DNA of 54,521 bases from Terriglobia bacterium (GTDB lineage Bacteria; Acidobacteriota; UBA6911), in assembly GCA_020072565.1 (NCBI GenBank), contig JAIQGI010000044.1, positions 1 through 54,521 of the forward strand. Direction: 5' to 3'. This document shows, piece by piece, positions 15,141 through 43,516 of this stretch. The stretch's first letter is position 1. Each line of letters starts with the position of its first letter. The position numbers and the translations under genes are program-made. The notes below the pieces were generated by a model. That model ran no database searches. It had not been told where the DNA came from and worked only from the letters and a program-made list of their open reading frames with translations.

Positions 15141-15340
15141 AGCAGTGCTATATGCTGAATGGGTAGTTATCAGTATTTTTACGGTTGAGGATGCTGCTTG
15201 TTTTTGCACACACTCATTCTGCGGTAGCATGAAACGTTGTGTCTTGCCAGGGGCTCTCCCATATGGATCTCGCGTGTTTTCCCCATCCGAGACGCAGACT
15301 TTGGGAAAGTATTTTTTGCGGAGAACGCCAAAGAGGGACA

Positions 15341-16666
15341 ATGAAAATTGGCATCATGGGGACGCCTGTTAGCTCCGGTAACCGCGGCGTGCTGGCGTTG
15401 GGAGCGTCACTTATTAACCTCTGCTCGCAGGCATCTTACGGAGTCGATGTGGCGCTGTTGTTGGCGAACCGCAACAACAAACCCGTGCCCTTCCGAGTGT
15501 GCGGTGAGCCACGGCTGATTCAAGTGGTCAACTGCCGCCTTTCGCCTCGATCACGCCCCCAAGACCATTTGGTCTGGATTCTCCTGATGTCGCTCATATA
15601 CCGTTTTTTGCCTTTGAGAGCTGTGCGGGCTGCCATTGTCCGATCTACCCCTTGGATCTCGGCGCTCGCTGAGGCGGACTTCGTCGGCGACGTGCACGGT
15701 GGTGATAGCTTCAGCGACATCTATGGGCTGCAGCGGTTCGCGCTGGGATTCCTGATGGCCTGGACGGTGGTTCTAGTGAAAGGTACGATGGTACAGTTCC
15801 CGCAGACCTATGGTCCCTACCAGAATCCGCTGACCCGCTGGCTTGCACGTTTTCTCCTGAAACACTCTTCTGTCATCATGGCCCGCGACAAACAGAGCCA
15901 GAAGCTCGCCCAGGAACTGGTAGGTCCTAAAAAGGAAGTGCTACTTAGCCCGGACGTGGCCTTTTCTCTGGAGCTTATCCGGCCGGAGAGAATTGAGTTG
16001 GCCCCACCGCTTGTTGGCCCCGTTCCCCCGGATATCATTGGCCTGAACGTGAACGGATTGATGTATCACGGCGGTTACACCCGCGCCAACATGTTCGGCC
16101 TCAAGCTGGATTACGCTTCGTTCCTCCCGTCGCTCATTATCGCTCTGCTAAGCGATCATCCTGGCGAACTCTGGCTGGTCCCCCACACGTTCGCCCCGGA
16201 GGGTGATGTGGAAAGTGACCCGGAAGCATCACGCCAATTGCGCGATGCGTTGCCCCAGGAACTTCGCGCCCGCATCCGCATCGTAGGCCGCGAATACGAT
16301 CAACACGAGATCAAGGGGGTGATCGGCGAGTGCGATTTTTTCATTGGGTCGCGCATGCATGCCTGCATCGCCGCTTTGTCGCAAGGGATTCCCTGCGTCG
16401 CTGTCGCTTACAGCAGAAAGTTTGAGGGTGTGTTCGATTCCGTGAGCATGGATGATTGGGTGGTGGATGGCCGGTCCGCCACAAATGAGGAGGCAGTCCA
16501 ACGTATTATACAACTCTACAGTCGGAGAGAGGCTATCCGCGAACGATTGGTGCAAAACGCAGCGGTCGCCCGCTCCCAATTGCAGCAGATTTTTCGCAAG
16601 CTGGTGTCGGAAGGGAAATCGGGCTCACTTGTACCACCTTCCCGGGTAGCCCACGCCAGTACTTAA
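15341..16666 (+). CDS. Polysaccharide pyruvyl transferase family protein
   Basis: I place the start at ATG 15341 (KIGIMGTPVSSGNRGVLALG), which begins with the family's N-terminal beta strand and has AGAGGGA just upstream. A longer frame adds 34 residues without family character. The 441-residue protein contains GDVHGGDSFSDIYG, VQFPQTYGPYQNP, IMARDKQSQKLAQEL and the C-terminal GSRMHACIAALSQGIPCVAVAYSRKF segment of PF04230-type ketal pyruvyl transferases. It would transfer pyruvate from PEP to a sugar of the repeat unit, adding negative charge. It pairs with the iron-sulfur protein gene that follows, a combination common in EPS clusters. Confidence 0.88.
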   Translation: MKIGIMGTPVSSGNRGVLALGASLINLCSQASYGVDVALLLANRNNKPVPFRVCGEPRLIQVVNCRLSPRSRPQDHLVWILLMSLIYRFLPLRAVRAAIVRSTPWISALAEADFVGDVHGGDSFSDIYGLQRFALGFLMAWTVVLVKGTMVQFPQTYGPYQNPLTRWLARFLLKHSSVIMARDKQSQKLAQELVGPKKEVLLSPDVAFSLELIRPERIELAPPLVGPVPPDIIGLNVNGLMYHGGYTRANMFGLKLDYASFLPSLIIALLSDHPGELWLVPHTFAPEGDVESDPEASRQLRDALPQELRARIRIVGREYDQHEIKGVIGECDFFIGSRMHACIAALSQGIPCVAVAYSRKFEGVFDSVSMDDWVVDGRSATNEEAVQRIIQLYSRREAIRERLVQNAAVARSQLQQIFRKLVSEGKSGSLVPPSRVAHAST

Positions 16667-16798: not shown

Positions 16799-18112
16799 AT
16801 GCCCTGTATTCGAAAACTAACGGACGTCGTGGGTTGGCGTCTTTGCCTCGGCTGTGGCGCCTGTGCCTACATCTGCCCGGACCACAGAGTGCAACTCATC
16901 GATTTCTGCGCCGAGGGCATACGCCCGGTAGTCAATTCCGACGACTGCGGCGATTGTCGGCAGTGCCTCGAGGTTTGCCCAGCGGTGCAGAGCGACTTTC
17001 GGACATCCGGCCTCCATGCCAGCGGACAATTCGATGACGCCTTCACCAAAGAATGGGGGCCAGTCGTATCAATATGGGAGGGCTATGCCAGCGACGCGGA
17101 GATTCGGTTTAAGGGATCTTCCGGTGGTGCGCTCACGGCCATCGCGGCCTACTGCCTCGAGAAACTGGACATGCACGGGGTGCTACACATTGTTCAGGAT
17201 CCGGCTGATCCCATCCGCAACCACACCTGCTTAAGCCGCTCGCGCTCAGAATTGATCGCAGCCACGGGTTCACGCTATTCACCTGCATCCGTTTGCAACG
17301 GCCTCGGGCTTGTAGAGAAGGCTCCTTCCCCATGTGTGGTGATTGGAAAGCCGGCCGAAATGGCTGCCGTTAGGAACGCCCAAAGACTGCGGCCCGAATT
17401 GGATGTCAAGGTGGGGGTGACTCTTTCTTTCTTCTGCGCAGAAAGCCCCGCCACCCGTGGGACAATAGCGCTCTTGGAGAAACTCGGCATCGATCCTGGC
17501 TCGCTCAGCGATCTGCGGTACCGCGGACACGGGTGGCCGGGACAATTTGCACCCGTAAGAACCGGCGAATCGAAGCCCATCAAGTTGTTGACCTACCGCG
17601 AGAGTTGGGCATTTCTGCAGGCGTACCGCCCTTGGTCAGTCCGGCTTTGGCCCGACAGCACCGGAGAACTGGCGGACCTGAGTTGCGGCGATCCGTGGTA
17701 TGAGGAACCGGACGGCGATAATCCTGGTTTTTCTTTAGTAGTAGCGCGGACCGAGCGCGGCCGCGAGGTCATCCAGGGCGCAATTGCGGCAGGTTACATA
17801 ATTTTAAAGCCTGCGGAGAGTTGGAAGCTGAAGAAATCGCAGCCTGGTCTGTTGTCGAAAAAGGGGGCAATCTGGGGGCGCCGTCTGGCAATGCACCTAT
17901 TTGGCCTCCCGCTCACACAGTTCAAGGGTTTGAATCTGTGGCACTGCTGGCGTCAGATCTCCCTTGAAGCCGAGCTGCGATCAATGCTTGGCACGGTTCG
18001 CCACATCCTAACTCGAAGACTCTACCGTCCAATGGAGCTGAACTCGCATGACGGTGTTCCAGTCAACCCGCCGACCATCGGCACATGGTCCAATCCTCGC
18101 TTGAGGCCATGA
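16799..18112 (+). CDS. Coenzyme F420 hydrogenase/dehydrogenase beta-subunit-like iron-sulfur protein
   Basis: The 437-residue protein starts with two 4Fe-4S ferredoxin motifs, CLGCGACAYICP and CGDCRQCLEVCP. These are followed by the FrhB/FdhB N-terminal part (FKGSSGGALTAIAAYCLE) and the C-terminal domain (TLSFFCAESPATRGTIALLEKLG, LRYRGHGWPGQF, LSCGDPWYEEP, GFSLVVARTERG). Such proteins occur next to polysaccharide pyruvyl transferases in many EPS clusters, where they are thought to be flavin/Fe-S redox enzymes acting on a glycan or nucleotide sugar. Use of F420 itself is not implied. The reaction here is unknown. Confidence 0.87.
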   Translation: MPCIRKLTDVVGWRLCLGCGACAYICPDHRVQLIDFCAEGIRPVVNSDDCGDCRQCLEVCPAVQSDFRTSGLHASGQFDDAFTKEWGPVVSIWEGYASDAEIRFKGSSGGALTAIAAYCLEKLDMHGVLHIVQDPADPIRNHTCLSRSRSELIAATGSRYSPASVCNGLGLVEKAPSPCVVIGKPAEMAAVRNAQRLRPELDVKVGVTLSFFCAESPATRGTIALLEKLGIDPGSLSDLRYRGHGWPGQFAPVRTGESKPIKLLTYRESWAFLQAYRPWSVRLWPDSTGELADLSCGDPWYEEPDGDNPGFSLVVARTERGREVIQGAIAAGYIILKPAESWKLKKSQPGLLSKKGAIWGRRLAMHLFGLPLTQFKGLNLWHCWRQISLEAELRSMLGTVRHILTRRLYRPMELNSHDGVPVNPPTIGTWSNPRLRP

Positions 18113-23933: not shown

Positions 23934-25625
23934 ATGCTAGCAAAGCGAAAAATAGGAATTGTCACTGCACCTCACGCTGGGGCATCTCCGGCCGACACGA
24001 CTGAGCTATGTGCTGCACTCTCCATGTTGTTTCCGGTGGAATTTTGCTATCGGGATAATAGGGATTGGGGCGATCTTGACGGAGCCATAGTGTTCGGGGA
24101 AGAATTATTTTCCGCTCTGGCTGGCGCGGCGCACGGGGTACCAGCGTACGTGGTTTGCGACTCGACCCGAGCGATAGAACGGCCCGGCTCAAGAGATGTC
24201 CGTATTGGGACTTCGGAGGAGTTGAACGAATGCCTCCGCGGTCGAGTGCTTGATGATTCCGATACCGAGCCAGTAGCTGGCATTGAGCTGCAGTTCCACG
24301 ATGTGGGTCTTGCCGACAAAGGCGGGGAACCGATCTGGGTGCGCCGCCGGATCGATAGTGGATGGCTCTACTTGGTCGCACTGGCCCCGCCTAGGTTGGA
24401 GCCTGGGGCTTCGCTCTACGACTGTTTCCGAGGCGGATCGTTTCTCAGCCTACTACCTCTCTTGCACTTCCTAATTAAACTGACGCAGGATACAAAATGG
24501 CAAGCTCCGCCCGTGCCAGCCTGCCTCGTCATCGACGATCCGAGCCTCTATGCAAAAACATATGGTTATGTTGATTTTTCTAGATTGGCATCGGATACCC
24601 TGGGGTGGAATTACTTCGTCGCTATTGCGACCATCCCGATTGATTGCTGGCGACTAAACCGTCGTGTGGTTGACATATTCAGGGCAAACAGGCCACGGCT
24701 TTCGCTCTTGGTCCATGGTAACAACCATACCTTTCACGAACTGCGGAGTCCGAGGTCATCCGAGGAGGACATCCGTCTATTGGCGCAGGCCCTGAACAGG
24801 TGGACTCGCCTGGAAGCTGAGCAGGGGCTCGAGATTTGCCGAGTGATGGAAGCGCCACATGGTTCCATCGCGGAGAGAATGTTCGCGCTGATGGCGGCGT
24901 TGGGTTACGAAGCTGTGTTGGGTGGCACGGAACTGCTGCTCCGCGCGAATTCAAGCGCACGACTTCCAAGAACACTCGGCTTAGACCGAACGTGCCCCAT
25001 GCGCAGCGGCTTCGCCGTCATCCCTAGAATCAGGGCATCGAAGTATTGGAAAACGGACGTGCTGCTGGCGGCATTCCTTCAGCAGCCTGTTGTTTTGGTG
25101 GCGCATCACTGGGATTTCGCTCGGTCCATGTCGCTGCCCCACGAGTTTGCAGACCTTGTAAACAGTCTGCCTGGCCTCTATTGGTCTAGCCCGCGCGGCA
25201 TAGTTCAGTCCTCTTATAAATTCCGCCACGAAGGCGAAGTATTGCATGTGAAGATGTATTCGGCGCGGATCCAAGTGCCCCTGCCGGAGGGTGTCCGGTT
25301 CCTGGTCGTGCATCGACCCTGGCTCGAGGAGTTTCCCGCCGAAGATCTGCTCACTGTGGCTACTGAAGGTGGCAACCAGTCACGCTTTCTCACTTCGTGC
25401 GCGGTTGTCGGACCCATGCCGGTTGTGTGCGGGACAACTCTTGTGATAGAAAACTCTCCTGCTCAACTAATCGACTCTCGGGGCGTAACCCCACCGCGGT
25501 CGAGATACTGGCCCGTGGTTCGGAAAGTTCTAATGGAGGTCCGCGATCGGAGCGCCCCGTGGCTGGGATTATCGAGAAATGCGGATCGTCGCTCAATTGC
25601 TCCCGGAACGATCCGACCGAATTGA
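23934..25625 (+). CDS. Divergent polysaccharide deacetylase-like protein with extra flanking domains
   Basis: This 563-residue protein is not a standard family member. Its core (about residues 195-430) looks NodB-like: ACLVIDDPSLY supplies paired aspartates at about 201-202, LSLLVHGNNHTFHE supplies an HxxxH zinc-type motif at about 261-265, and VMEAPHGSIAERMFALMAALGYEA matches a later deacetylase segment. The first 190 residues resemble a Rossmann-like receiver of unknown function (IGIVTAPHAGASP, GAIVFGEEL), and the last 120 are beta-rich (FLVVHRPWLEEFP). There is no signal peptide. It probably acts on a saccharide intermediate, but the reaction is not established. It immediately precedes the acyl-module operon. 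Confidence 0.65.
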   Translation: MLAKRKIGIVTAPHAGASPADTTELCAALSMLFPVEFCYRDNRDWGDLDGAIVFGEELFSALAGAAHGVPAYVVCDSTRAIERPGSRDVRIGTSEELNECLRGRVLDDSDTEPVAGIELQFHDVGLADKGGEPIWVRRRIDSGWLYLVALAPPRLEPGASLYDCFRGGSFLSLLPLLHFLIKLTQDTKWQAPPVPACLVIDDPSLYAKTYGYVDFSRLASDTLGWNYFVAIATIPIDCWRLNRRVVDIFRANRPRLSLLVHGNNHTFHELRSPRSSEEDIRLLAQALNRWTRLEAEQGLEICRVMEAPHGSIAERMFALMAALGYEAVLGGTELLLRANSSARLPRTLGLDRTCPMRSGFAVIPRIRASKYWKTDVLLAAFLQQPVVLVAHHWDFARSMSLPHEFADLVNSLPGLYWSSPRGIVQSSYKFRHEGEVLHVKMYSARIQVPLPEGVRFLVVHRPWLEEFPAEDLLTVATEGGNQSRFLTSCAVVGPMPVVCGTTLVIENSPAQLIDSRGVTPPRSRYWPVVRKVLMEVRDRSAPWLGLSRNADRRSIAPGTIRPN

Positions 25626-25642: not shown

Positions 25643-26407
25643 ATGAAGGATCTCTTTCAGCTATCGGGCGTGTTTCTGGTCACGGGTGGCACGCGTGGAA
25701 TCGGAAGAGCCATGTCGCTAAGGCTCGGACGGGCTGGCGCCACTGTCGTGGCGAACTATGTAAGGAATGAAAAAGCGGCGATTGAACTCACGTCAGTGGC
25801 TGAGAGCGAAGGGCTGAAAGTTGAACCATGTCGCGCAGACTTGACTACGCCGGAAGGACTTCGCAGCATTGAGAGTCGCGTGCAGCAATTGGGGGGGGCG
25901 CTTTGCGGGTTGATTCACTGCGCTGCCACGGGGACCCACCGCTCATTTGAGGAATCAACCTCGCGACACCTCGATTGGACGTTCTCCCTCAATGTCCGGG
26001 CTTTTTTTGAACTGATAAAGATGTTACTTCCAAGGTTGGTGAGGGGTTCGAGCATCATTGCGGTCAGCTCGCCAGGCGCACTCCGTGCAGTTCAACGCTA
26101 TGCCGTGATAGGTGCGTCAAAAGGCGCACTGGAGTCTCTGGCGAGACACATGGCCATCGAACTTGCACCCAAGGAGATTCGAGTAAATATTCTTGCACCT
26201 GGAGCTGTCGATACCGATACCTGGAGGTCAATCCCAGGAGGTGACACTGTCCTGAATGAAGCGGCAAGACGATCACCCATTGGCCGTCTGGTCACGGCGG
26301 AGGAAGTCGCTTTCGCCGCTCATTTTCTTTTATCCCAGGCTGCCTCGGGAATCAACGGACAGACGCTGGTCGTTGATGGGGGCACAGGCGTTGCAGCTTG
26401 GTGCTGA
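25643..26407 (+). CDS. FabL-like enoyl-ACP reductase (SDR family)
   Basis: From ATG 25643 the protein has 254 residues. It has the SDR cofactor motif VTGGTRGIGRA, an IHCAATGTHRSFEE segment in place of NNAG, and a catalytic tyrosine and lysine spaced by six residues (Y153-AVIGAS-K160). That YxxxxxxK spacing is typical of FabI/FabL enoyl reductases rather than the YxxxK of FabG-type ketoreductases. GAVDTDTW and the C-terminal GQTLVVDGG also match FabL. It would reduce trans-2-enoyl-ACP with NAD(P)H. An alternative TTG start at 25622 overlaps the upstream stop. The ACP gene follows 91 bp downstream, supporting a thioester substrate. Confidence 0.82.
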   Translation: MKDLFQLSGVFLVTGGTRGIGRAMSLRLGRAGATVVANYVRNEKAAIELTSVAESEGLKVEPCRADLTTPEGLRSIESRVQQLGGALCGLIHCAATGTHRSFEESTSRHLDWTFSLNVRAFFELIKMLLPRLVRGSSIIAVSSPGALRAVQRYAVIGASKGALESLARHMAIELAPKEIRVNILAPGAVDTDTWRSIPGGDTVLNEAARRSPIGRLVTAEEVAFAAHFLLSQAASGINGQTLVVDGGTGVAAWC

Positions 26408-26498
26408 TTGATAGGGTCAGCCACTAGCGCCTGTTCTTTAGAATTATCAGCATTTTATCCAAACGCGTAAATAACAATCAAGGCTGGAAGAGTAATCT

Positions 26499-26741
26499 AT
26501 GGAAGACCTGCTGCAAAAAGTACGCCGAGCATTCTCGGCCACTTTCGACGTTGATCCGTCGTCCGTAAACTTCGACACGAGTCCGAAAAATATTCCTGCA
26601 TGGGATTCGATGGGGCACGTCGCACTGGCCAGCAAACTGGAGAGAGAATTTGGTCTTACATTCGACGTAGATGAATTGATGGAAATGGAAGATGTACGCC
26701 AGATTGTTCGAATCGTTGAGTCCAAATCGGTCAAGTCTTGA
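26499..26741 (+). CDS. Dedicated acyl carrier protein
   Basis: This is an 80-residue acidic four-helix carrier protein. The phosphopantetheine attachment serine is S37 in the WDSMGH motif (usual DSL/DSM). The following EFGLTFDVDELMEMEDVRQIV helix is the partner-recognition region. It would carry the acyl (or aminoacyl) chain for the neighbouring ligase, FabL-like, FabZ-like and Lux-type enzymes. It ends one base before the ligase start, so the two are translationally linked. It is clearly not the housekeeping AcpP, whose neighbours are fab genes. Confidence 0.9.
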   Translation: MEDLLQKVRRAFSATFDVDPSSVNFDTSPKNIPAWDSMGHVALASKLEREFGLTFDVDELMEMEDVRQIVRIVESKSVKS

Positions 26742-26742
26742 C

Positions 26743-28209
26743 ATGGCTAAGTCCGAGGAATGGAATTTTGCGGGCCGCCTCATTCAGCGTCTCGGGCCTG
26801 GTTCCTGCCTCATCGACGCTTCCTCCGGAGAGACTCTCCGAGGCCGCGCAATCACCGATACGATCATAGCATTCGCCGCCGGGTTTCTATCGACGGGTAT
26901 GCACGCAGGTGACCGAGTTCTTATCGGTTGTGGTCTGAGCCCGGGAAGCGCCCTTGCGTACCTGGGTGCAATGTACGCGGGCCTTGTTCCCGTGCCGGTC
27001 GAGCAGCGCGTACTCCCGATTTACGGCGAGGCACTCTTGGACAAGACGGGCGCAAAGGCAGCCTGGACTGCAAGGGACATTGGGCTCGACTGCACTGGGG
27101 ATCGTAACGTCGTTCGCGCGCAAGGATATTTCACTGGCAGTGGTGCTTGTTCGTTGAAGCCCTTCCCGTCCTCGGAGACTGATATAGCCGCCTTGATGCC
27201 GACGTCGGGGTCGACCGGCATTCCGCGGCTTGTAATGGTTAGTCACGGTAATTTGCTCGCCAACACGGAAGCAATTGTTCGCAGCCAAAAGCTGGGAACC
27301 GATGAGAGAGCCATGCTGGTAATGCCGATCAGCTACGTGTTCGGCGCCAGTATACTCCACAGCCACATGTATCAAGGTGGAGCGGTCGTGTTTGATTCGC
27401 GCTTCACATTTCCAGACAAGGTGCTCCGTGCCATAAATGCGCACGCTTGCACCACCTTTGCGGGCGTCCCAACAGCTTACAGTATGCTGCTGAGACGCTC
27501 AAACCTAAGATCTATTCCTTTGCCGACGTTGCGGCGATTCCTGCAGGCAGGCGGCGCGCTTTCTACACAAAGCATCCAGGAAACCCGCCAAATCGTTCCC
27601 AGCGCAGCGTTCTTTGTTATGTACGGCCAAACCGAGGCCACAGCGCGTATCTCCTGCCTTCCGCCCGAAAGGCTCCAGGAGAAACTAGGAAGCGCGGGTG
27701 TGCCGCTTGACAACCTCACCGTTCATATTAAGGACGATGAGGGACGAGAATTGCCCGCCGGGCAAACCGGTGAGGTCTGGGTGCGAGGTCCATCGGTCTG
27801 TTGCGGTTACTTAGACGATCCCGAAGAAACGAAGCGCAAGTTTGTGGACGGGTGGTTACGAACAGACGACCTGGGCTCTCTTGATAAAGATGGCTACCTG
27901 TGGATCAAAGGCCGCAAGGGTGAATTTGTCAAGATGCGCGGACTTCGAGTGAGCTTTGCCGAGGTGGAAGCCAAAGTTGCCGCAGTTTCGGGTGTCTGCG
28001 AGTGTGCCGCAACTGCCGTGCCACATCGTGAAGCCGGAGAAGCGTTGGCAGTTTTCATCGTGCCGGAGGCTGGAGACAGCGGAGTGTGCGAACGAGTTCG
28101 CCGCTCGTTACCTTTCCATTGGACCTGCGAGAACGTACGGGTCCTTGCGGAGATACCGAAAACGTCCAACGGTAAGATCGCTCGTTCCCAACTGATGAGC
28201 TTCCTATGA
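26743..28209 (+). CDS. AMP-dependent acyl-ACP/CoA ligase
   Basis: The 488-residue protein, starting at ATG 26743 directly after the ACP stop, is an ANL-superfamily adenylating enzyme. Motifs in order are LMPTSGSTGIPRLVMVSHGNL (A3 P-loop), VMPISYVFGASI, FVMYGQTEATARIS (A5), GWLRTDDLG (A7), GRKGEFVKMRGLRVSFAEVE (A8), and IPKTSNGKIARSQL with the catalytic lysine (A10). It most likely activates a carboxylic acid as acyl-AMP and loads it on the adjacent ACP. Its stop overlaps the LuxE-like start by four bases. The acid could be a fatty, hydroxy or amino acid; sequence alone does not tell. Confidence 0.87.
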   Translation: MAKSEEWNFAGRLIQRLGPGSCLIDASSGETLRGRAITDTIIAFAAGFLSTGMHAGDRVLIGCGLSPGSALAYLGAMYAGLVPVPVEQRVLPIYGEALLDKTGAKAAWTARDIGLDCTGDRNVVRAQGYFTGSGACSLKPFPSSETDIAALMPTSGSTGIPRLVMVSHGNLLANTEAIVRSQKLGTDERAMLVMPISYVFGASILHSHMYQGGAVVFDSRFTFPDKVLRAINAHACTTFAGVPTAYSMLLRRSNLRSIPLPTLRRFLQAGGALSTQSIQETRQIVPSAAFFVMYGQTEATARISCLPPERLQEKLGSAGVPLDNLTVHIKDDEGRELPAGQTGEVWVRGPSVCCGYLDDPEETKRKFVDGWLRTDDLGSLDKDGYLWIKGRKGEFVKMRGLRVSFAEVEAKVAAVSGVCECAATAVPHREAGEALAVFIVPEAGDSGVCERVRRSLPFHWTCENVRVLAEIPKTSNGKIARSQLMSFL

Positions 28210-29330
28210 CCGATCTGACAGAGATCGAACGTCGCATCGATACGCTTTTTGTATCTCCGCCGTATGCGGCAGAGCCTTCGCTGCGACTCTCTAACTTACT
28301 TGCGCTGCTCCAAGATGAACTGGAGTATGCAGCCGCCAGGAATCCGCACTTTCGCAACTACTTGGACAATTGGCCAGTTGACTACCATACTGCAGAAGCG
28401 ATTGCTGATCTGCCCTTTTTGCCGGTCGGCGCGTTTAAGGCTAATCCGCCATTAACATTGATTAACACCGATGAGATAAAGCGCATCTTGTCTTCGAGCG
28501 CGACGACCGGTCAGGTACCCAGTCGCGTGTTTTTGGATAACGCCACGGCGAGGCGGATGACCAAAGGCATCATAACGATAATCCGCGATTTCATAGGTTC
28601 GGCCCGGAGACCTTTCCTCGTGATAGACACTTCGGACAAACTGTCCGGAGAGGCCGAGCTCGGCGCGCGCGGTGCGGCAATTCAGGGACTGATACCCTTC
28701 GCGACCGAAACTGTTTGCTGCCTCAATGGCGACACGGTCACGGCCCCGTCGCTCGATCTCAGAAAGCTCATGGATTGTGGGCAAAAGTGGAAACAAGCGG
28801 ATGTCATCGTCTACGGGTTTACATATGTCATCTGGAATTATTTTGTAAAACCGTTGGAATCGGCGGGCATGAAATTGGACATGCCCAATGTTCGGGTGCT
28901 GCATAGCGGTGGGTGGAAGCGTCTGGAGGCACAGGCGGTGACGAAGGATATGTTCGCCGCACGCGTGGCCTCTGTGTTTGGTTGCTCACCAAAGGATGTC
29001 ATCGACTTCTATGGCATGGTGGAAAACGTGGGAGTCGTGTATCCGGATTGCCCATACAGCAATAAACACGCCCCTACATTCGCAGAGGTGATCATAAGAA
29101 ATCCCCTGACGCTGCAGCCGGTCGACGTTGGAGAGCAAGGGTTGGTTCAAGTCTGCAGTGCGCTGCCTACTAGCTTCACGGGTTTCCTGGTATTGACCGA
29201 GGACATCGGCGAAGTCGTCGACTATGACAATTGTCCCTGCGGACGGCGGGGCATCTGTTTCCACTTTGTCAAGCGTGTCCCAAAGGCAGAGTTAAGAGGC
29301 TGCGGAAACATGGACGTCAGCCGCCGCTAG
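28206..29330 (+). CDS. LuxE-like acyl-protein synthetase
   Basis: The 374-residue protein matches the acyl-protein synthetase (LuxE) family, the ATP-dependent component of fatty acid reductase. The SSSATTGQVPSRVFLD segment is the ATP-binding TSGTTG-like motif. FYGMVENVGVVYPDC and VEVVDYDN-type segments follow (here GEVVDYDNCPCGRRG), and the C-terminal AELRGCGN places a cysteine (C366) at the position that accepts the acyl group in LuxE. It starts within the ligase stop codon (ATGA). With the LuxC-like protein it should activate an acid and hand it on for reduction to an aldehyde. There is no luciferase gene (luxAB) in the window. Confidence 0.87.
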   Translation: MTDLTEIERRIDTLFVSPPYAAEPSLRLSNLLALLQDELEYAAARNPHFRNYLDNWPVDYHTAEAIADLPFLPVGAFKANPPLTLINTDEIKRILSSSATTGQVPSRVFLDNATARRMTKGIITIIRDFIGSARRPFLVIDTSDKLSGEAELGARGAAIQGLIPFATETVCCLNGDTVTAPSLDLRKLMDCGQKWKQADVIVYGFTYVIWNYFVKPLESAGMKLDMPNVRVLHSGGWKRLEAQAVTKDMFAARVASVFGCSPKDVIDFYGMVENVGVVYPDCPYSNKHAPTFAEVIIRNPLTLQPVDVGEQGLVQVCSALPTSFTGFLVLTEDIGEVVDYDNCPCGRRGICFHFVKRVPKAELRGCGNMDVSRR

Positions 29331-29352
29331 TTTTAGACGACCACAACAAACG

Positions 29353-30609
29353 ATGCGTGAAATGATTCGCAGATTGGATTCTCCTCAGGAATTCGCCGAG
29401 ACAGCCAGCCGACTTCGACAGGTCGCCACGGAGAAGCCGCTGTCTGCGACTATGGTGCTCGAAATCTTCGAGCGGTGGGCGTCCGCCCTTCATGGTCCCG
29501 GGCTGGATGGCGTGCCGGGTTTGGCTTTTTTTCGCTTGTGGTTGCGCCGCGGAACGCTGGAGCCGATCTTGCGAAGGGAACTCGGTTTGGACCTGCTCGA
29601 TGGCGGGTGGCGAGATGAAGGTCGCACAAGACTCCGGAGTTTTCCTGTTGGAGTGGTTGGACACTGGCCTGCGGGCAACATCGAAATTCAGCCCGTAGTA
29701 TCGCTCACGTGTGCCCTCCTCGGAGGAAACGCTTGTGTGGTGCGCGTTCCGTCAGGGCTGCAGGAAGCCACACGCTACATAATCGAAAAACTGGAACAGG
29801 CCGATGAGAGTGGTGTGTTGCCTCAGCGCATATTGATGACGACATTCGAGCACTCGAGGTTTGATCTTCACCGGGCAATGGCTCAGGTTGTAGACGGCGC
29901 TATGATCTGGGGTGGGGCAGAGGCCGTCACGCAGATCCGCGGACTGCCATTTCCTCACTGGGCGCGCATCGCTGCATTCGGCCCAAGGCTGTCCGTAGCA
30001 GCGATGGATGCGAGTTCGTGGGGGAATAGGTCTGAGCGAGATTCGTGGTGCCGCCGTATCGCTCGAGACGTTTGGCAGTTTGAGCAGCAAGCTTGTTCCT
30101 CACCACAGGCGCTCTTTCTCGAGCGAGATTCCAGATGTGATCTGAATGAATTTCTACAATGTCTCAGGCGGGCCTTTGACGAAGAGAATCGCCTGCATCC
30201 GCGACGCATTATCGATCTCGCATTGACTTCCGCAATCTGCCAGGCGCGCTCGTCATGGCTTCTGGATGATATCGCCCATCGTGCGTTATTTCCAAAATCA
30301 CCGGACTGGACGATCCTTATCGGTGAGGGGCCAGTCATTCCTAACCCGACCCAGGGTAGAACCTTGAACGTCCTCGTTGTGGATAGTCTCTTCGAACCGA
30401 TTGCCAGGTTTGACGGTACCGTGCAGACCCTGGGACTGGGTGTATCCGATGTCCACAAAGAGGAATCACTCGCACTTGCTGCGGGACAAAGGGGCGTCGA
30501 CAGGATCGTAAAGCTCGGAAGAATGCACGTTTTCAGCTCTCCGTGGGACGGCGCCGATTTGATTCGCCCGATGGTTCGCCTTGTACGACACCTACGCTCA
30601 CAAAACTGA
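29353..30609 (+). CDS. LuxC-like acyl-CoA/acyl-protein reductase
   Basis: The 418-residue protein belongs to the aldehyde-dehydrogenase-fold LuxC family, which reduces a thioester-bound acyl group to an aldehyde with NADPH. Recognisable are GVVGHWPAGNIEIQPVVSL, GGNACVVRVPSG, an MIWGGAEAV segment and the catalytic cysteine C248 in FEQQACSSPQALF. The glutamate-rich KEESLALAAGQRGVDRIVKLGRMH segment is typical of the C-terminal catalytic part. It follows the LuxE-like gene by 22 bp, which preserves the luxC/luxE partnership in inverted order. The product aldehyde may be used for EPS or lipid modification (inference). Confidence 0.87.
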   Translation: MREMIRRLDSPQEFAETASRLRQVATEKPLSATMVLEIFERWASALHGPGLDGVPGLAFFRLWLRRGTLEPILRRELGLDLLDGGWRDEGRTRLRSFPVGVVGHWPAGNIEIQPVVSLTCALLGGNACVVRVPSGLQEATRYIIEKLEQADESGVLPQRILMTTFEHSRFDLHRAMAQVVDGAMIWGGAEAVTQIRGLPFPHWARIAAFGPRLSVAAMDASSWGNRSERDSWCRRIARDVWQFEQQACSSPQALFLERDSRCDLNEFLQCLRRAFDEENRLHPRRIIDLALTSAICQARSSWLLDDIAHRALFPKSPDWTILIGEGPVIPNPTQGRTLNVLVVDSLFEPIARFDGTVQTLGLGVSDVHKEESLALAAGQRGVDRIVKLGRMHVFSSPWDGADLIRPMVRLVRHLRSQN

Positions 30610-30645
30610 TGATTCATTTCCCTTCAGAACATCAAGGATCTCATC

Positions 30646-31545
30646 ATGAGAGAAGGTGAGGCCTTTCTAGATGCACTGGATCGTAGAGCCAAGATTCTAG
30701 CGCCGGCTGCGAGGGCGACCTACGAAGCAAATCGCAATCTGTGCTCCTGGCTGCTTGATCCACTGGCGCGTTGGTCTGAGGCAGCATACGGTAATCGAGC
30801 TTTCGATGATGCCGCCAGAGGATACGCGAAATACTGCATGGCTGTTGGGAAAGCCCAAGAGGTCTACGAGCGCGCTAGAAGGTACACCACTGAAGACATG
30901 CCACAAATCATGTCCGGTGTGTACGAAGACGATGGCTACATGGTGCCGTACATGTGGGCCGCAGTTTTAATTTATGCGTTCTGGCCGTCTATGATCAACC
31001 ACATCGCGATCTTTCGAGACGAGTTCCTGAAGTGCTTGCCCAGAGAGTCAAGGATACTTGAGCTCGCCTGCGGGCATGGTGTGTTGAGCCTACTGGCCGC
31101 GGAGGAACGACCGGACGTTCAGGTTCAGGGTGTAGATATCAGCCCGCCAGCGATCGCAATTGCGAATCGCCTTCTTGACGTCTCTGGGCACTCCGCCAGG
31201 ATCACTTATGCCGTCAAGGACGCGCTCCAATCCGAAGCCATAGCGGGTCAGACAGGATACGATGGAATAATATCCGCGATGCTGGCGGAACATTTGCCCG
31301 ATCCACGACCTCTTTTCACCGCTGTGTCAAGGCAACTGTCCAAGGATGGCTATGTGTTTTTCAGCACAGCTATTGAGTCTGCGCAACGTGACCACGTCTT
31401 CGAAATGAACCATGAGAGCCAACCTATTCAAATGGCTGAGGCCGCACGGCTCCGTGTGACGCGGCTGGTATCTGACGCGGGCACAGTACCGCCCGGCTGT
31501 CACTTCCTCCCCAGGGCAACGGCGATGATCTTTAGACCACGATAA
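30646..31545 (+). CDS. Class I SAM-dependent methyltransferase
   Basis: The 299-residue protein has an N-terminal helical part (about 1-120) followed by a Rossmann-type methyltransferase. ILELACGHGVLSLLA is the SAM-binding motif I, VQGVDISPPAIAIANRLL supplies the acidic residue for the ribose, and YDGIISAMLAEHLPDP is motif IV. Position between the LuxC-like and FabZ-like genes suggests it methylates the acyl product or its sugar acceptor, but the substrate is unknown. The C-terminal ...PPGCHFLPRATAMIF is not diagnostic. Confidence 0.82.
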   Translation: MREGEAFLDALDRRAKILAPAARATYEANRNLCSWLLDPLARWSEAAYGNRAFDDAARGYAKYCMAVGKAQEVYERARRYTTEDMPQIMSGVYEDDGYMVPYMWAAVLIYAFWPSMINHIAIFRDEFLKCLPRESRILELACGHGVLSLLAAEERPDVQVQGVDISPPAIAIANRLLDVSGHSARITYAVKDALQSEAIAGQTGYDGIISAMLAEHLPDPRPLFTAVSRQLSKDGYVFFSTAIESAQRDHVFEMNHESQPIQMAEAARLRVTRLVSDAGTVPPGCHFLPRATAMIFRPR

Positions 31546-31609
31546 GAACAGATCAGACGACGCAAGATCTATATATTTGCACCTAATCTGCGGGCAAACG
31601 GATTAACAT

Positions 31610-32068
31610 ATGTCCAAACCATTAATGTGTTTCGAGGAAGTGCGGGCCCTACTAAAGCAGCGATTCCCTATGATTATGGTGGACAATGTCCTGGCACTAG
31701 AACCCGGAAGGAGCATCCGCGCGACGAAGAATGTTACGGGCAACGAAATTCAACTCCTAGGCCATTTCCCTGAATACGCTGTGATGCCCGGCTCGATGAT
31801 CCTGGAGGCAATTGGCCAGGCGGCCTCGATACTGTTTTCAAAGACGACTGGCACCGGGACAGGTGCTGGAGAATTTTTGGTGTTGGGGCTTGTTGACGAT
31901 ATGAGATTCCTCGTTCCGGTGACTCCGGGGGATCAAATGGAGATCAGCGTGGATGTGGCAAAAATCGTCAAAGACGTTGCATTTGTAAAAGGGGTTGTTA
32001 CGGTCGGAGATATCGTCGTGGCAACAGGCAAACTCGGCTTCGCGCGAAGACGACTGCAGGCAATCTGA
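31610..32068 (+). CDS. FabZ-like 3-hydroxyacyl-ACP dehydratase (hot-dog fold)
   Basis: This 152-residue hot-dog protein has FabZ-type catalytic residues: H52 in GHFPEYAVMPGS and E66 in ILEAIGQAA, spaced 14 residues apart as in FabZ. RFPMIMVDNVLALEPG at the N-terminus matches the family start. It would dehydrate a 3-hydroxyacyl-ACP to the enoyl-ACP that the FabL-like enzyme then reduces. A ketosynthase and a ketoreductase for chain extension are not present, so the module would depend on the housekeeping pathway or start from an imported hydroxyacyl chain. Confidence 0.85.
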   Translation: MSKPLMCFEEVRALLKQRFPMIMVDNVLALEPGRSIRATKNVTGNEIQLLGHFPEYAVMPGSMILEAIGQAASILFSKTTGTGTGAGEFLVLGLVDDMRFLVPVTPGDQMEISVDVAKIVKDVAFVKGVVTVGDIVVATGKLGFARRRLQAI

Positions 32069-32155
32069 GGTCGCATTTCATACTTTTTGACGCTGCAATC
32101 CAACATCTGACTCCCTACACAGTAGTGGTCTTGGAGTTTGAACGGAAGCAACATC

Positions 32156-32686
32156 ATGCGACGCGTAGCAAGGCAAGTCTTCAATCGAGTCCTCCACCTC
32201 ATGGCCAGGTTCCTTCCCGGCGCCACAAGCCTCAGGCCATTTCTTCATCGCCTACGAGGCGTAAGCATCAAAGGCAAGGTATTTATCGGAGACGACGTAT
32301 ATCTGGAAAACGAGTATCCCGAAGCAGTGGAACTGCGCGATGGGGCCTTGATAGGATTACGTTCTACGATCGTAGCTCACACTCGTGGAATCGGCCGAAT
32401 CATTATCGGCGAAAAGGCCGTGATTGGTGCAGGCAGCCTCGTAGTCTGCTCCGTGGGTAAAACCCTTGAAATTGGGGAAGGGTCCGTCATATCCGTTGGT
32501 TCTGTTGTCACCAACAACATTCCCCCATTCACTTTGTGCGGCGGTCCCCGGGTCCAGGTTTGTGCCAAGGTCACCGTCCCATTCACGTTACAAACTAGTT
32601 ATGAGGCGTTTGTTAGAGGCCTCGTGCCAATCCGTGACGTAGAGCCGCCAGAGGACACATGCTCTACAGGCAACAAAAGCGGGTGA
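32156..32686 (+). CDS. Hexapeptide-repeat acyltransferase
   Basis: I choose ATG 32156 because GGAAG at 32144-32148 is ideally placed; an earlier TTG adds six residues. The 176-residue protein has a basic, amphipathic N-terminus (RRVARQVFNRVLHLMARFLPG) and then a short left-handed beta-helix: IKGKVFIGDDVYLEN, IIIGEKAVIGAGSLVV, LEIGEGSVISVGSVV, NIPPFTLCGGPR. This resembles small EPS O-acetyltransferases. Its place at the end of the acyl module makes acyl (rather than only acetyl) transfer to a sugar a reasonable but unproven idea. Confidence 0.78.
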   Translation: MRRVARQVFNRVLHLMARFLPGATSLRPFLHRLRGVSIKGKVFIGDDVYLENEYPEAVELRDGALIGLRSTIVAHTRGIGRIIIGEKAVIGAGSLVVCSVGKTLEIGEGSVISVGSVVTNNIPPFTLCGGPRVQVCAKVTVPFTLQTSYEAFVRGLVPIRDVEPPEDTCSTGNKSG

Positions 32687-42490: not shown

Positions 42491-42560
42491 TGGCGTCTTC
42501 GCGTCCTGGCGTCTTGGCGTTTGCTTTTCAAACCGCGAAGTCGCCAAGACGCCAAGCGCA
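42491..42560. repeat. GGCGTCTTGGCG-type inverted repeat
   Basis: TGGCGTCTTCGCGTCCTGGCGTCTTGGCG on the left is mirrored by CGCGAAGTCGCCAAGACGCCAAGCGC on the right. The stem ends about 40 bases before the exosortase start. Its presence argues against the longer in-frame ATG-less extension of that gene. Confidence 0.65.
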
Positions 42561-42598
42561 ATTTCTGGACAGATCTTCATTGGAATCAGAATGATCCT

Positions 42599-43516
42599 AT
42601 GGCTATGACTTTGACTGCAACCGCAAGGATGAGCATTAAGACGAGAGGCTTTCTGTTTACAGCAGTCTTTCTCGCTTCGATATTGGCAAACCTGGCGTTT
42701 TTCAAACAGCTGGTTGAGTTTTCGATCCACAATGAGTTTTCATCGCACATTTTCTTTATTCCCTTGCTCAGCCTTGCCCTCATTTTCCGCAAGAGAGCCA
42801 CGATTTTCAAAGATGTCAGCCACTCCGTGCTTCTGGGAGGGACCATCTCGGTCATCGCAGTAGCTCTTCTGATCTCGGAAAGCCTGGTGAAAAATGGGCT
42901 GGACGCTTCGGACGCTCTATCTGCAAGGGCACTTACAATCGTGATTCTGTGGGCCGGGATGTTTCTTTTCTTTTATGGAACTGAAAGCTTTCGGAAGGCG
43001 CTTTTCTCAATGCTCTTTCTTGTGCTCATGGTCCCGATCCCAAGGACTCTGCTCGAAGTCATTATATCCGCGCTACAGAGGGGCTCCGCCGATATGACCG
43101 CACTGCTGTTCAAGATAACAGGCACGCCTTACTATCGTGACGGCCTGACGTTTGTGTTGCCCAGGATCAGCATCGAGATTGCCACTCAATGCAGCAGCAT
43201 ACGATCCAGTTTGGCCCTGCTGATCAGCTGCCTCCTTGCCGGCCACCTGATTCTTAAGACCTTTTGGCGCAAGTCGTTCTTCGCGCTAGTGGCTGTGCCC
43301 ATGGCGATGATCAAGAACGCCATACGAATTGTGACTTTGTCACTCCTGTCGATCCATATCGACAGGCGATTCATCGTAAGCAGCGATCTGCACCACGAGG
43401 GAGGAATCGTCTTCTTTTTGACAACGCTGCTACTCCTGTGGCCCGTGCTCTGGCTTTTGCGACGATCGGAGCGCGAGACGGGCTTACCTAAAAGAACTGA
43501 TGTGAAGGCTGCATGA
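42599..43516 (+). CDS. Exosortase (exosortase 1 of the window)
   Basis: From ATG 42599 the protein has 305 residues and about eight membrane helices. The exosortase catalytic triad is present: Cys198 in IATQCSSIRSSLAL, Arg243 in KNAIRIVTLS and a histidine at about 265-266 in LHHEGGIVFF. It is a transpeptidase-like enzyme that cuts PEP-CTERM proteins between the recognition motif and the hydrophobic tail in the inner membrane. No EpsI-type C-terminal domain is fused. It overlaps the prsK start by four bases (ATGA), so exosortase and kinase are translationally coupled. A longer frame begins in repeat DNA and is rejected. Confidence 0.9.
   Translation: MAMTLTATARMSIKTRGFLFTAVFLASILANLAFFKQLVEFSIHNEFSSHIFFIPLLSLALIFRKRATIFKDVSHSVLLGGTISVIAVALLISESLVKNGLDASDALSARALTIVILWAGMFLFFYGTESFRKALFSMLFLVLMVPIPRTLLEVIISALQRGSADMTALLFKITGTPYYRDGLTFVLPRISIEIATQCSSIRSSLALLISCLLAGHLILKTFWRKSFFALVAVPMAMIKNAIRIVTLSLLSIHIDRRFIVSSDLHHEGGIVFFLTTLLLLWPVLWLLRRSERETGLPKRTDVKAA

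Follow-up and report, generated by a model that had tools for sequence, protein, structure and literature searches.

Eight genes, all on the forward strand, lie side by side at positions 25643-32686 of the stretch of DNA analyzed here (54,521 nucleotides of a Terriglobia bacterium, contig JAIQGI010000044.1; referred to as the window). In order, they encode an SDR, an acyl carrier protein (ACP), an AMP-forming acyl ligase, LuxE- and LuxC-like proteins, a methyltransferase, a FabZ-type dehydratase and a hexapeptide acyltransferase (Table 1). The first-pass annotation had reported these genes at this place and in this orientation and order, and the open reading frame calls agree with it, as do the Pfam and NCBIfam searches, if only weakly for the last gene; the residues it had named for the SDR, ACP, LuxE, LuxC and FabZ proteins are exactly those listed in Table 1. 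Its description of the genes as tightly spaced holds for the ACP and ligase genes (1 nt apart) and for the ligase and LuxE genes, which share an ATGA overlap, but not for the other joints, which measure 22-91 nt (91 nt between SDR and ACP; 22, 36, 64 and 69 nt, in this order, after LuxE). The ORFs around the module include no luciferase gene, likewise as annotated, and no luxD either.

Table 1. Features of the window and of related loci
Feature	Position	Strand	Remarks
Protein with polysaccharide-deacetylase-like motifs (DD, HxxxH)	23934..25625	+	Upstream of SDR
SDR, FabL (enoyl-ACP reductase) type	25643..26407	+	Pfam adh_short_C2; Y153-x6-K160
Acyl carrier protein, dedicated	26499..26741	+	Pfam PP-binding; Ser37
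AMP-forming acyl ligase	26743..28209	+	Pfam AMP-binding, AMP-binding_C; alternative start 26692
LuxE-like acyl-protein synthetase	28206..29330	+	Pfam LuxE 5e-57; Cys366
LuxC-like acyl reductase	29353..30609	+	Pfam LuxC 5e-52; Cys248
Class I SAM methyltransferase, helical N-terminal domain	30646..31545	+	Pfam Methyltransf_23
FabZ-type 3-hydroxyacyl-ACP dehydratase	31610..32068	+	NCBIfam FabZ PRK00006 above cut-off; His52/Glu66
Hexapeptide (left-handed-helix) acyltransferase	32138..32686	+	Weak NCBIfam hexapeptide matches; His81
Leucine-rich-repeat ORF, 1552 aa	35864-40522		Between EPS genes and exosortase
Exosortase	42521-43516
Clostridium locus (example)	L053:8234-19581		ACP-ligase-LuxE-LuxC, sigma-54 regulator, 4-hydroxybutyryl-CoA dehydratase, NifU-like protein, 4-hydroxybutyrate CoA-transferase, transporter
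Other 23 Clostridium loci			L046-L051, L054, L056, L057, L059, L061, L062, L064, L065, L067, L068, L070, L071, L073-L075, L077, L078

The top NCBIfam match of the SDR is FabL, with a score under the FabL cut-off, and its nearest solved structure is FabL of B. subtilis (3oic, 205 bits). The ACP is likely loaded by the AMP-forming ligase encoded next to it. Since profiles of amino-acid, malonyl, aryl and fatty acid ligases all match this enzyme alike, its profile does not disclose a substrate; its score against the exosortase A-associated acyl ligase model TIGR03098 (222.6 bits) lies below the cut-off of 592. LuxE and LuxC are textbook enzymes of bacterial light production. The LuxE-like protein matches 7xc6_E with 68 bits, the LuxC-like protein aligns with 7xc6_A across the QQAC motif, and both catalytic cysteines align with their counterparts in this LuxC-LuxE complex. 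An identity as long-chain Lux enzymes was rejected, as the NCBIfam equivalog cut-offs were missed by LuxE (68 versus 550 bits) and by LuxC (65 versus 750 bits). The structural model of the methyltransferase (pLDDT 83) has the fold of O-/C-methyltransferases (Z about 18); a fold search ranks class I SAM enzymes with O, N and C targets side by side and so does not tell which atom is methylated. Pfam assigns the dehydratase to FabA/FabZ, and it is an extra copy, since a second FabZ with 32% identity is encoded elsewhere in the genome. The acyltransferase gene starts with TTG, and an ATG at position 32156 might serve instead. The protein encoded upstream of the SDR possibly has a functional link to the module: a homologue with 38% identity lies directly 5' of the SDR in a related locus (L023). 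It has no match in Pfam or NCBIfam, a class-wide search found no relatives of it, and its predicted structure (pLDDT 45) was set aside.

Genes for a sugar transferase, Wzx, glycosyltransferases, DegT, a pyruvyl transferase, FemAB-like proteins and an exosortase mark the window as an EPS locus. With scores above the curated cut-offs for PrsK (385 versus 300 bits) and PrsR (607 versus 502), the cluster is of the exosortase/PrsK/PrsR type. The annotation's claim of a dedicated, ACP-borne acyl module in an EPS cluster, with LuxC/LuxE chemistry and no luciferase, is supported. The leucine-rich-repeat protein and the FemAB-like genes were considered and excluded; they belong to the wider EPS/exosortase locus. 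The polysaccharide pyruvyl transferase gene (15239-16666) adjoins a gene for an iron-sulphur protein resembling the beta subunit of coenzyme F420 hydrogenase (16799-18112).

The genome contains one clear LuxC (177 bits) and a second, partial match (34 bits). Relatives of the same family possess exosortase genes (52% identity in G013). Of the family's 14 other genomes, not one gave a strong LuxC match and only a congener (G001) gave weak ones; the cassette is therefore an accessory part. Across the phylum, 11 of 396 genomes gave a LuxE match; the methyltransferase profile, scored on five candidates per genome, matched in the window's genome alone, and this enzyme may be less rare in the phylum than that suggests. 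No LuxE was found in viral contigs.

Recurrence of the ACP-ligase-LuxE-LuxC core

With a LuxE alignment of four rows as the query, a search of 84,980 species genomes yielded 556 relatives, the best 80 of which were kept as loci; many of these records are MAGs, so individual host names may be wrong. Among these best 80 of 556 relatives, the ligase gene lies just 5' of LuxE in 73 of the 78 testable loci, an ACP gene lies upstream in 72 of 76, and LuxC follows LuxE in 77 of 80. Departures from this order include fusions (L055, L080) and insertions (L091, L093, L098), and the core is spread over bacteria and archaea. The Cys of LuxE and its adenylation residues (Glu, Asp) are invariant in 83 loci with one gap, the catalytic Cys of LuxC is present in 77 of 78 (the remaining one is a gap), and the Ser of ACP is invariant in 78 homologues; so are the E, D and K of the ligase adenylation motifs (75 sequences) and the His and Glu of FabZ (20 sequences). 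The module is not a product of chance, since the same neighborhood, its catalytic residues invariant, is met again in different phyla. A lack of neighborhood conservation, or a loss of catalytic Cys or Ser residues, had been named in the annotation as what would speak against it, and the counts show neighborhood and residues alike to be kept. Judged by its sequence, the eight-gene module is real, conserved and intact, and its function is what we infer below.

All six Asgard loci (L045, L052, L063, L066, L082, L085) have an iron alcohol dehydrogenase (ADH) directly before LuxE. It is inserted between ligase and LuxE in L045, L052, L066 and L082, fused to LuxE in L085, and located before LuxE with a divergent ligase gene in L063. 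The ORF of about 360 aa that separates ligase from LuxE in Asgard loci, at first unassigned, had been predicted beforehand to be such an enzyme by analogy with RfbM, the iron ADH of the tetronate operon of V. cholerae O1. Pfam Fe-ADH was found in all four of the Asgard proteins tested, and the remaining two are homologues at the same place (L052 and, fused, L085).

In 24 Clostridium loci among the best 80 of 556 relatives, the core stands beside a sigma-54 regulator gene, which separates LuxC from 4-hydroxybutyrate genes, so that these need not be co-transcribed with the core (Table 1). A 4-hydroxybutyryl-CoA dehydratase is encoded next to the core in 20 of the 24 (1u8v, 811 bits), a 4-hydroxybutyrate CoA-transferase-like protein in 19 (3gk7, 554 bits) and a MaoC dehydratase in seven, so that one or the other dehydratase is present in 23. 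This gene content provides an apparent fermentation context for LuxE and LuxC. Acyltransferase and glycan genes are mostly absent from these loci, so that ligase and ACP may have their role in the reduction itself. A holo-ACP synthase gene adjoins ACP in L043, L080, L081 and L087 (archaea, of which L080 and L081 are methanogens, and one Omnitrophota MAG), and the ACP therefore seems dedicated to the module. Split transketolase genes were seen by the four-gene set in L017, on a Rhizobium plasmid, and in L081.

Taken together, the Asgard ADH and the clostridial 4-hydroxybutyrate genes point to the conversion of a small acid via an aldehyde to an alcohol rather than to long-chain chemistry. The annotation had spoken of a lipid- or aldehyde-derived modification, and a long-chain fatty aldehyde or lipid could in principle anchor the polysaccharide to the membrane: LuxC and LuxE of luminous bacteria act on long-chain acids, and a liposugar was proposed by the authors of the flagellin-island papers. 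We hold this to be very improbable, since both window proteins score far below the cut-offs for the long-chain enzymes, the module has no ketosynthase, the clostridial context is one of C4 chemistry, and a genome-wide search for LuxD gave no match (its control was equally silent). Nothing at the locus indicates a long chain.

A clade of modules with a methyltransferase

In the LuxE tree, the window falls into a supported clade of 27 loci (support 100/98) whose members add a methyltransferase to the core; they come from Acidobacteriota, Verrucomicrobiota, Pseudomonadota, Bacteroidota, Actinomycetota and Thermodesulfobacteriota. Two members without this gene (L027, L033) are loci that end at contig ends. 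The methyltransferase is specific to the clade and 50-71% identical over 13 loci. FabZ nearly always accompanies it in the close group, being absent only from L022 among the testable loci. A FabL-type SDR occurs in 12 of 24 close loci, with Y-x6-K in all 12, whereas the SDRs of other groups have YxxxK.

The enzyme predicted to accept the acyl group varies. The hexapeptide acyltransferase of the window has counterparts of 64-67% identity in the corresponding position of L023 and L032, its His81 is invariant in six sequences, and a different hexapeptide type adjoins the module in L031, L033 and L086. GNAT-like neighbors of two types are found, one in L019, L024 and L035 (assigned by eye, with no Pfam match) and one in L026 and L083. 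In L030, an NRPS with the domains C-A-MT-PCP-TE (L030:12010-17661) lies between LuxC and the methyltransferase and may couple the acyl group to an amino acid in this locus. Such exchangeable acyl-accepting enzymes suggest that an acyl-ACP is the end product of the module.

The EPS link made in the annotation holds for the window and some of its relatives only. Glycosyltransferases surround the module in the window, L020, L031, L034 and L086, and an exosortase marker is present in L023; for many close relatives, the stretch covered contains no glycan genes. The cassette could also make a small molecule or metabolite unrelated to EPS and have come to lie in the EPS cluster by happenstance. This would suit its sporadic distribution within the phylum and those close relatives (L021, L024, L025, L026, L035, L083) that have few or no glycan markers nearby, L021 being flanked by lon. 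We consider it distinctly unlikely in view of the glycosyltransferases and the exosortase marker just mentioned, the hexapeptide acyltransferases that flank the module, and the location of the core among nonulosonic-acid genes in Aeromonas-type islands.

A proposed route from a small acid to an acylated sugar

From gene content, gene order, intact catalytic residues and conservation, all of them read from the sequence, we infer a substrate, an order of steps, a product and an acceptor. The reading that we favor, with confidence a little short of even, is that the cassette assembles a short, tailored acyl group on an ACP of its own and passes it to an EPS sugar, and that it reduces first and loads afterward. 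LuxE would adenylate a free acid of small size, probably a (hydroxy)dicarboxylate with four carbons that resembles malate or succinate; since its adenylation residues and its Cys are intact, LuxE could take a free acid and need not draw an acyl group from ACP. Via Cys366 of LuxE, the acyl group would move to Cys248 of LuxC and be reduced in an NADPH-dependent reaction to a (semi)aldehyde. A dehydrogenase would turn this aldehyde into an alcohol, giving a hydroxy acid; in other loci this would be the iron ADH or a FabG-type SDR, and in the window either the FabL-type SDR or a housekeeping enzyme. Unless the SDR performs this step, no obvious aldehyde reductase is encoded in the window. The ligase would then load the hydroxy acid onto Ser37 of ACP, where FabZ, together with the SDR should the latter work as an enoyl reductase, could process the beta position and the methyltransferase could add a methyl group. 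Finally, the hexapeptide acyltransferase would transfer the acyl group to a sugar precursor, at either an amino or a hydroxyl group. A dihydroxybutyryl-type product would fit the tetronate of V. cholerae O1; FabZ and the FabL-type SDR are not needed for tetronate, and the acyl group made in the window must hence be a different one.

As the main alternative, the same enzymes could operate in the reverse order. The ligase would charge ACP, FabZ and the SDR would process the chain, and LuxE/LuxC would release an aldehyde in the manner of a split carboxylic-acid reductase, so that the aldehyde or an alcohol derived from it would reach the polysaccharide. This comes near to the scheme of the first-pass annotation and accords with the thioester substrates that LuxC of light-making bacteria accepts, and with the persistence of ACP and ligase next to LuxE/LuxC in Clostridium loci that lack acyltransferase and glycan genes. 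We nevertheless regard it as unlikely, as a complete LuxE adenylation site would be superfluous in a reductase fed by ACP, several kinds of acyltransferase adjoin the module, and the ADH insertion suggests that the aldehyde goes on to a further step. From the inserted dehydrogenases and interchangeable acyltransferases, the aldehyde seems to be an intermediate and not, as annotated, the decorating or anchoring group itself.

If reduction does precede loading, the module would explain why bacterial glycans carry a family of unusual acyl groups and would open a route to a new EPS substituent that can be put to the test; with its modest size, the cassette lends itself to reconstitution in vitro. 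LuxE and LuxC tied to their own ligase and ACP recur in sugar-coat clusters, in archaea and in Clostridium fermentation loci, and our literature search found no tested function for the module in any of these three settings. More broadly, and with less assurance, ACP-ligase-LuxE-LuxC might be a general machine of ancient origin with which bacteria and archaea convert small carboxylic acids into hydroxyacyl-ACPs, the bioluminescence reductase being a specialized offshoot; the window would then contain a new clade of it, with methyltransferase, FabZ and often a FabL-type reductase, for a methylated acyl group not yet described and destined for exosortase-type EPS; we rate this extended proposal as rather doubtful.

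Comparison with known systems

The core is already known from other sugar-coat clusters, to which the version in the window adds methyltransferase and FabZ. The annotation's statement that such a system had not been described for this context thus stands only in part: the five-gene core is known from flagellin islands and a LuxE domain from RfbN. A literature search that covered a minority of the subscription journals turned up no paper on the variant with methyltransferase and FabZ, on the exosortase setting, or on the Asgard or Clostridium versions, which is a weak sign of novelty. The bioluminescence pair (PDB 7xc6) belongs to the same families and has the same catalytic cysteines as the pair in the window, which differs by its dedicated ligase and ACP and by having no luciferase or LuxD beside it.

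The rfbKLMNO (wbe) genes of V. cholerae O1 are responsible for the ACP, ligase, LuxE/LuxC and acyltransferase roles. For RfbN, a LuxE domain is on record. Five genes (VC0248-VC0252) are assigned to the tetronate pathway, which the title of a 1995 paper terms putative; the O-antigen sugar perosamine is N-acylated by a small hydroxy acid, and the product is an amide-linked 3-deoxy-tetronate. The window resembles this system in keeping ACP, AMP ligase, LuxE, LuxC and acyltransferase together. It differs in that LuxE and LuxC are separate proteins, that no iron ADH is present among the module genes, that it has a FabL-type SDR, a methyltransferase and FabZ in addition, and that the setting is EPS instead of O-antigen.

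The group II flagellar glycosylation island of Aeromonas (orf1-3, luxE, luxC) encodes ACP, an ACP reductase of the 3-oxoacyl (ketoacyl) kind, an AMP synthetase, LuxE and LuxC near glycosyltransferases, and the same gene families occur in enterobacterial flagellin glycosylation islands, for which the liposugar was proposed. Going by the published description, ACP, reductase, ligase, LuxE and LuxC are shared with the window; one of our loci (L092) has this layout together with nonulosonic-acid genes. The window falls outside the Aeromonas-type set because its SDR is of the FabL type (Y-x6-K), whereas the Alteromonadaceae examples have the FabG type (YxxxK); moreover, the Aeromonas-type island has no methyltransferase-FabZ pair and serves a protein glycan. 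The flagellin glycan of Aeromonas AH-3, whose island has the five-gene set, ends in a 102 Da unit (PMC7874193), for which a route that reduces and then loads, if true, would supply a candidate. The mass of a dihydroxybutyryl residue (102.03) equals that of this terminal unit, as a nominal mass only and with isomers in existence.

In the viosamine island of Pseudomonas syringae (VioS, VioR, ACP, VioB, VioM), mass spectrometry of mutants showed that dedicated ACP enzymes, an acyltransferase and a methyltransferase can modify an amino sugar. The window has such a combination too; the island has the ketosynthase VioS where the window has the ligase and LuxE/LuxC.
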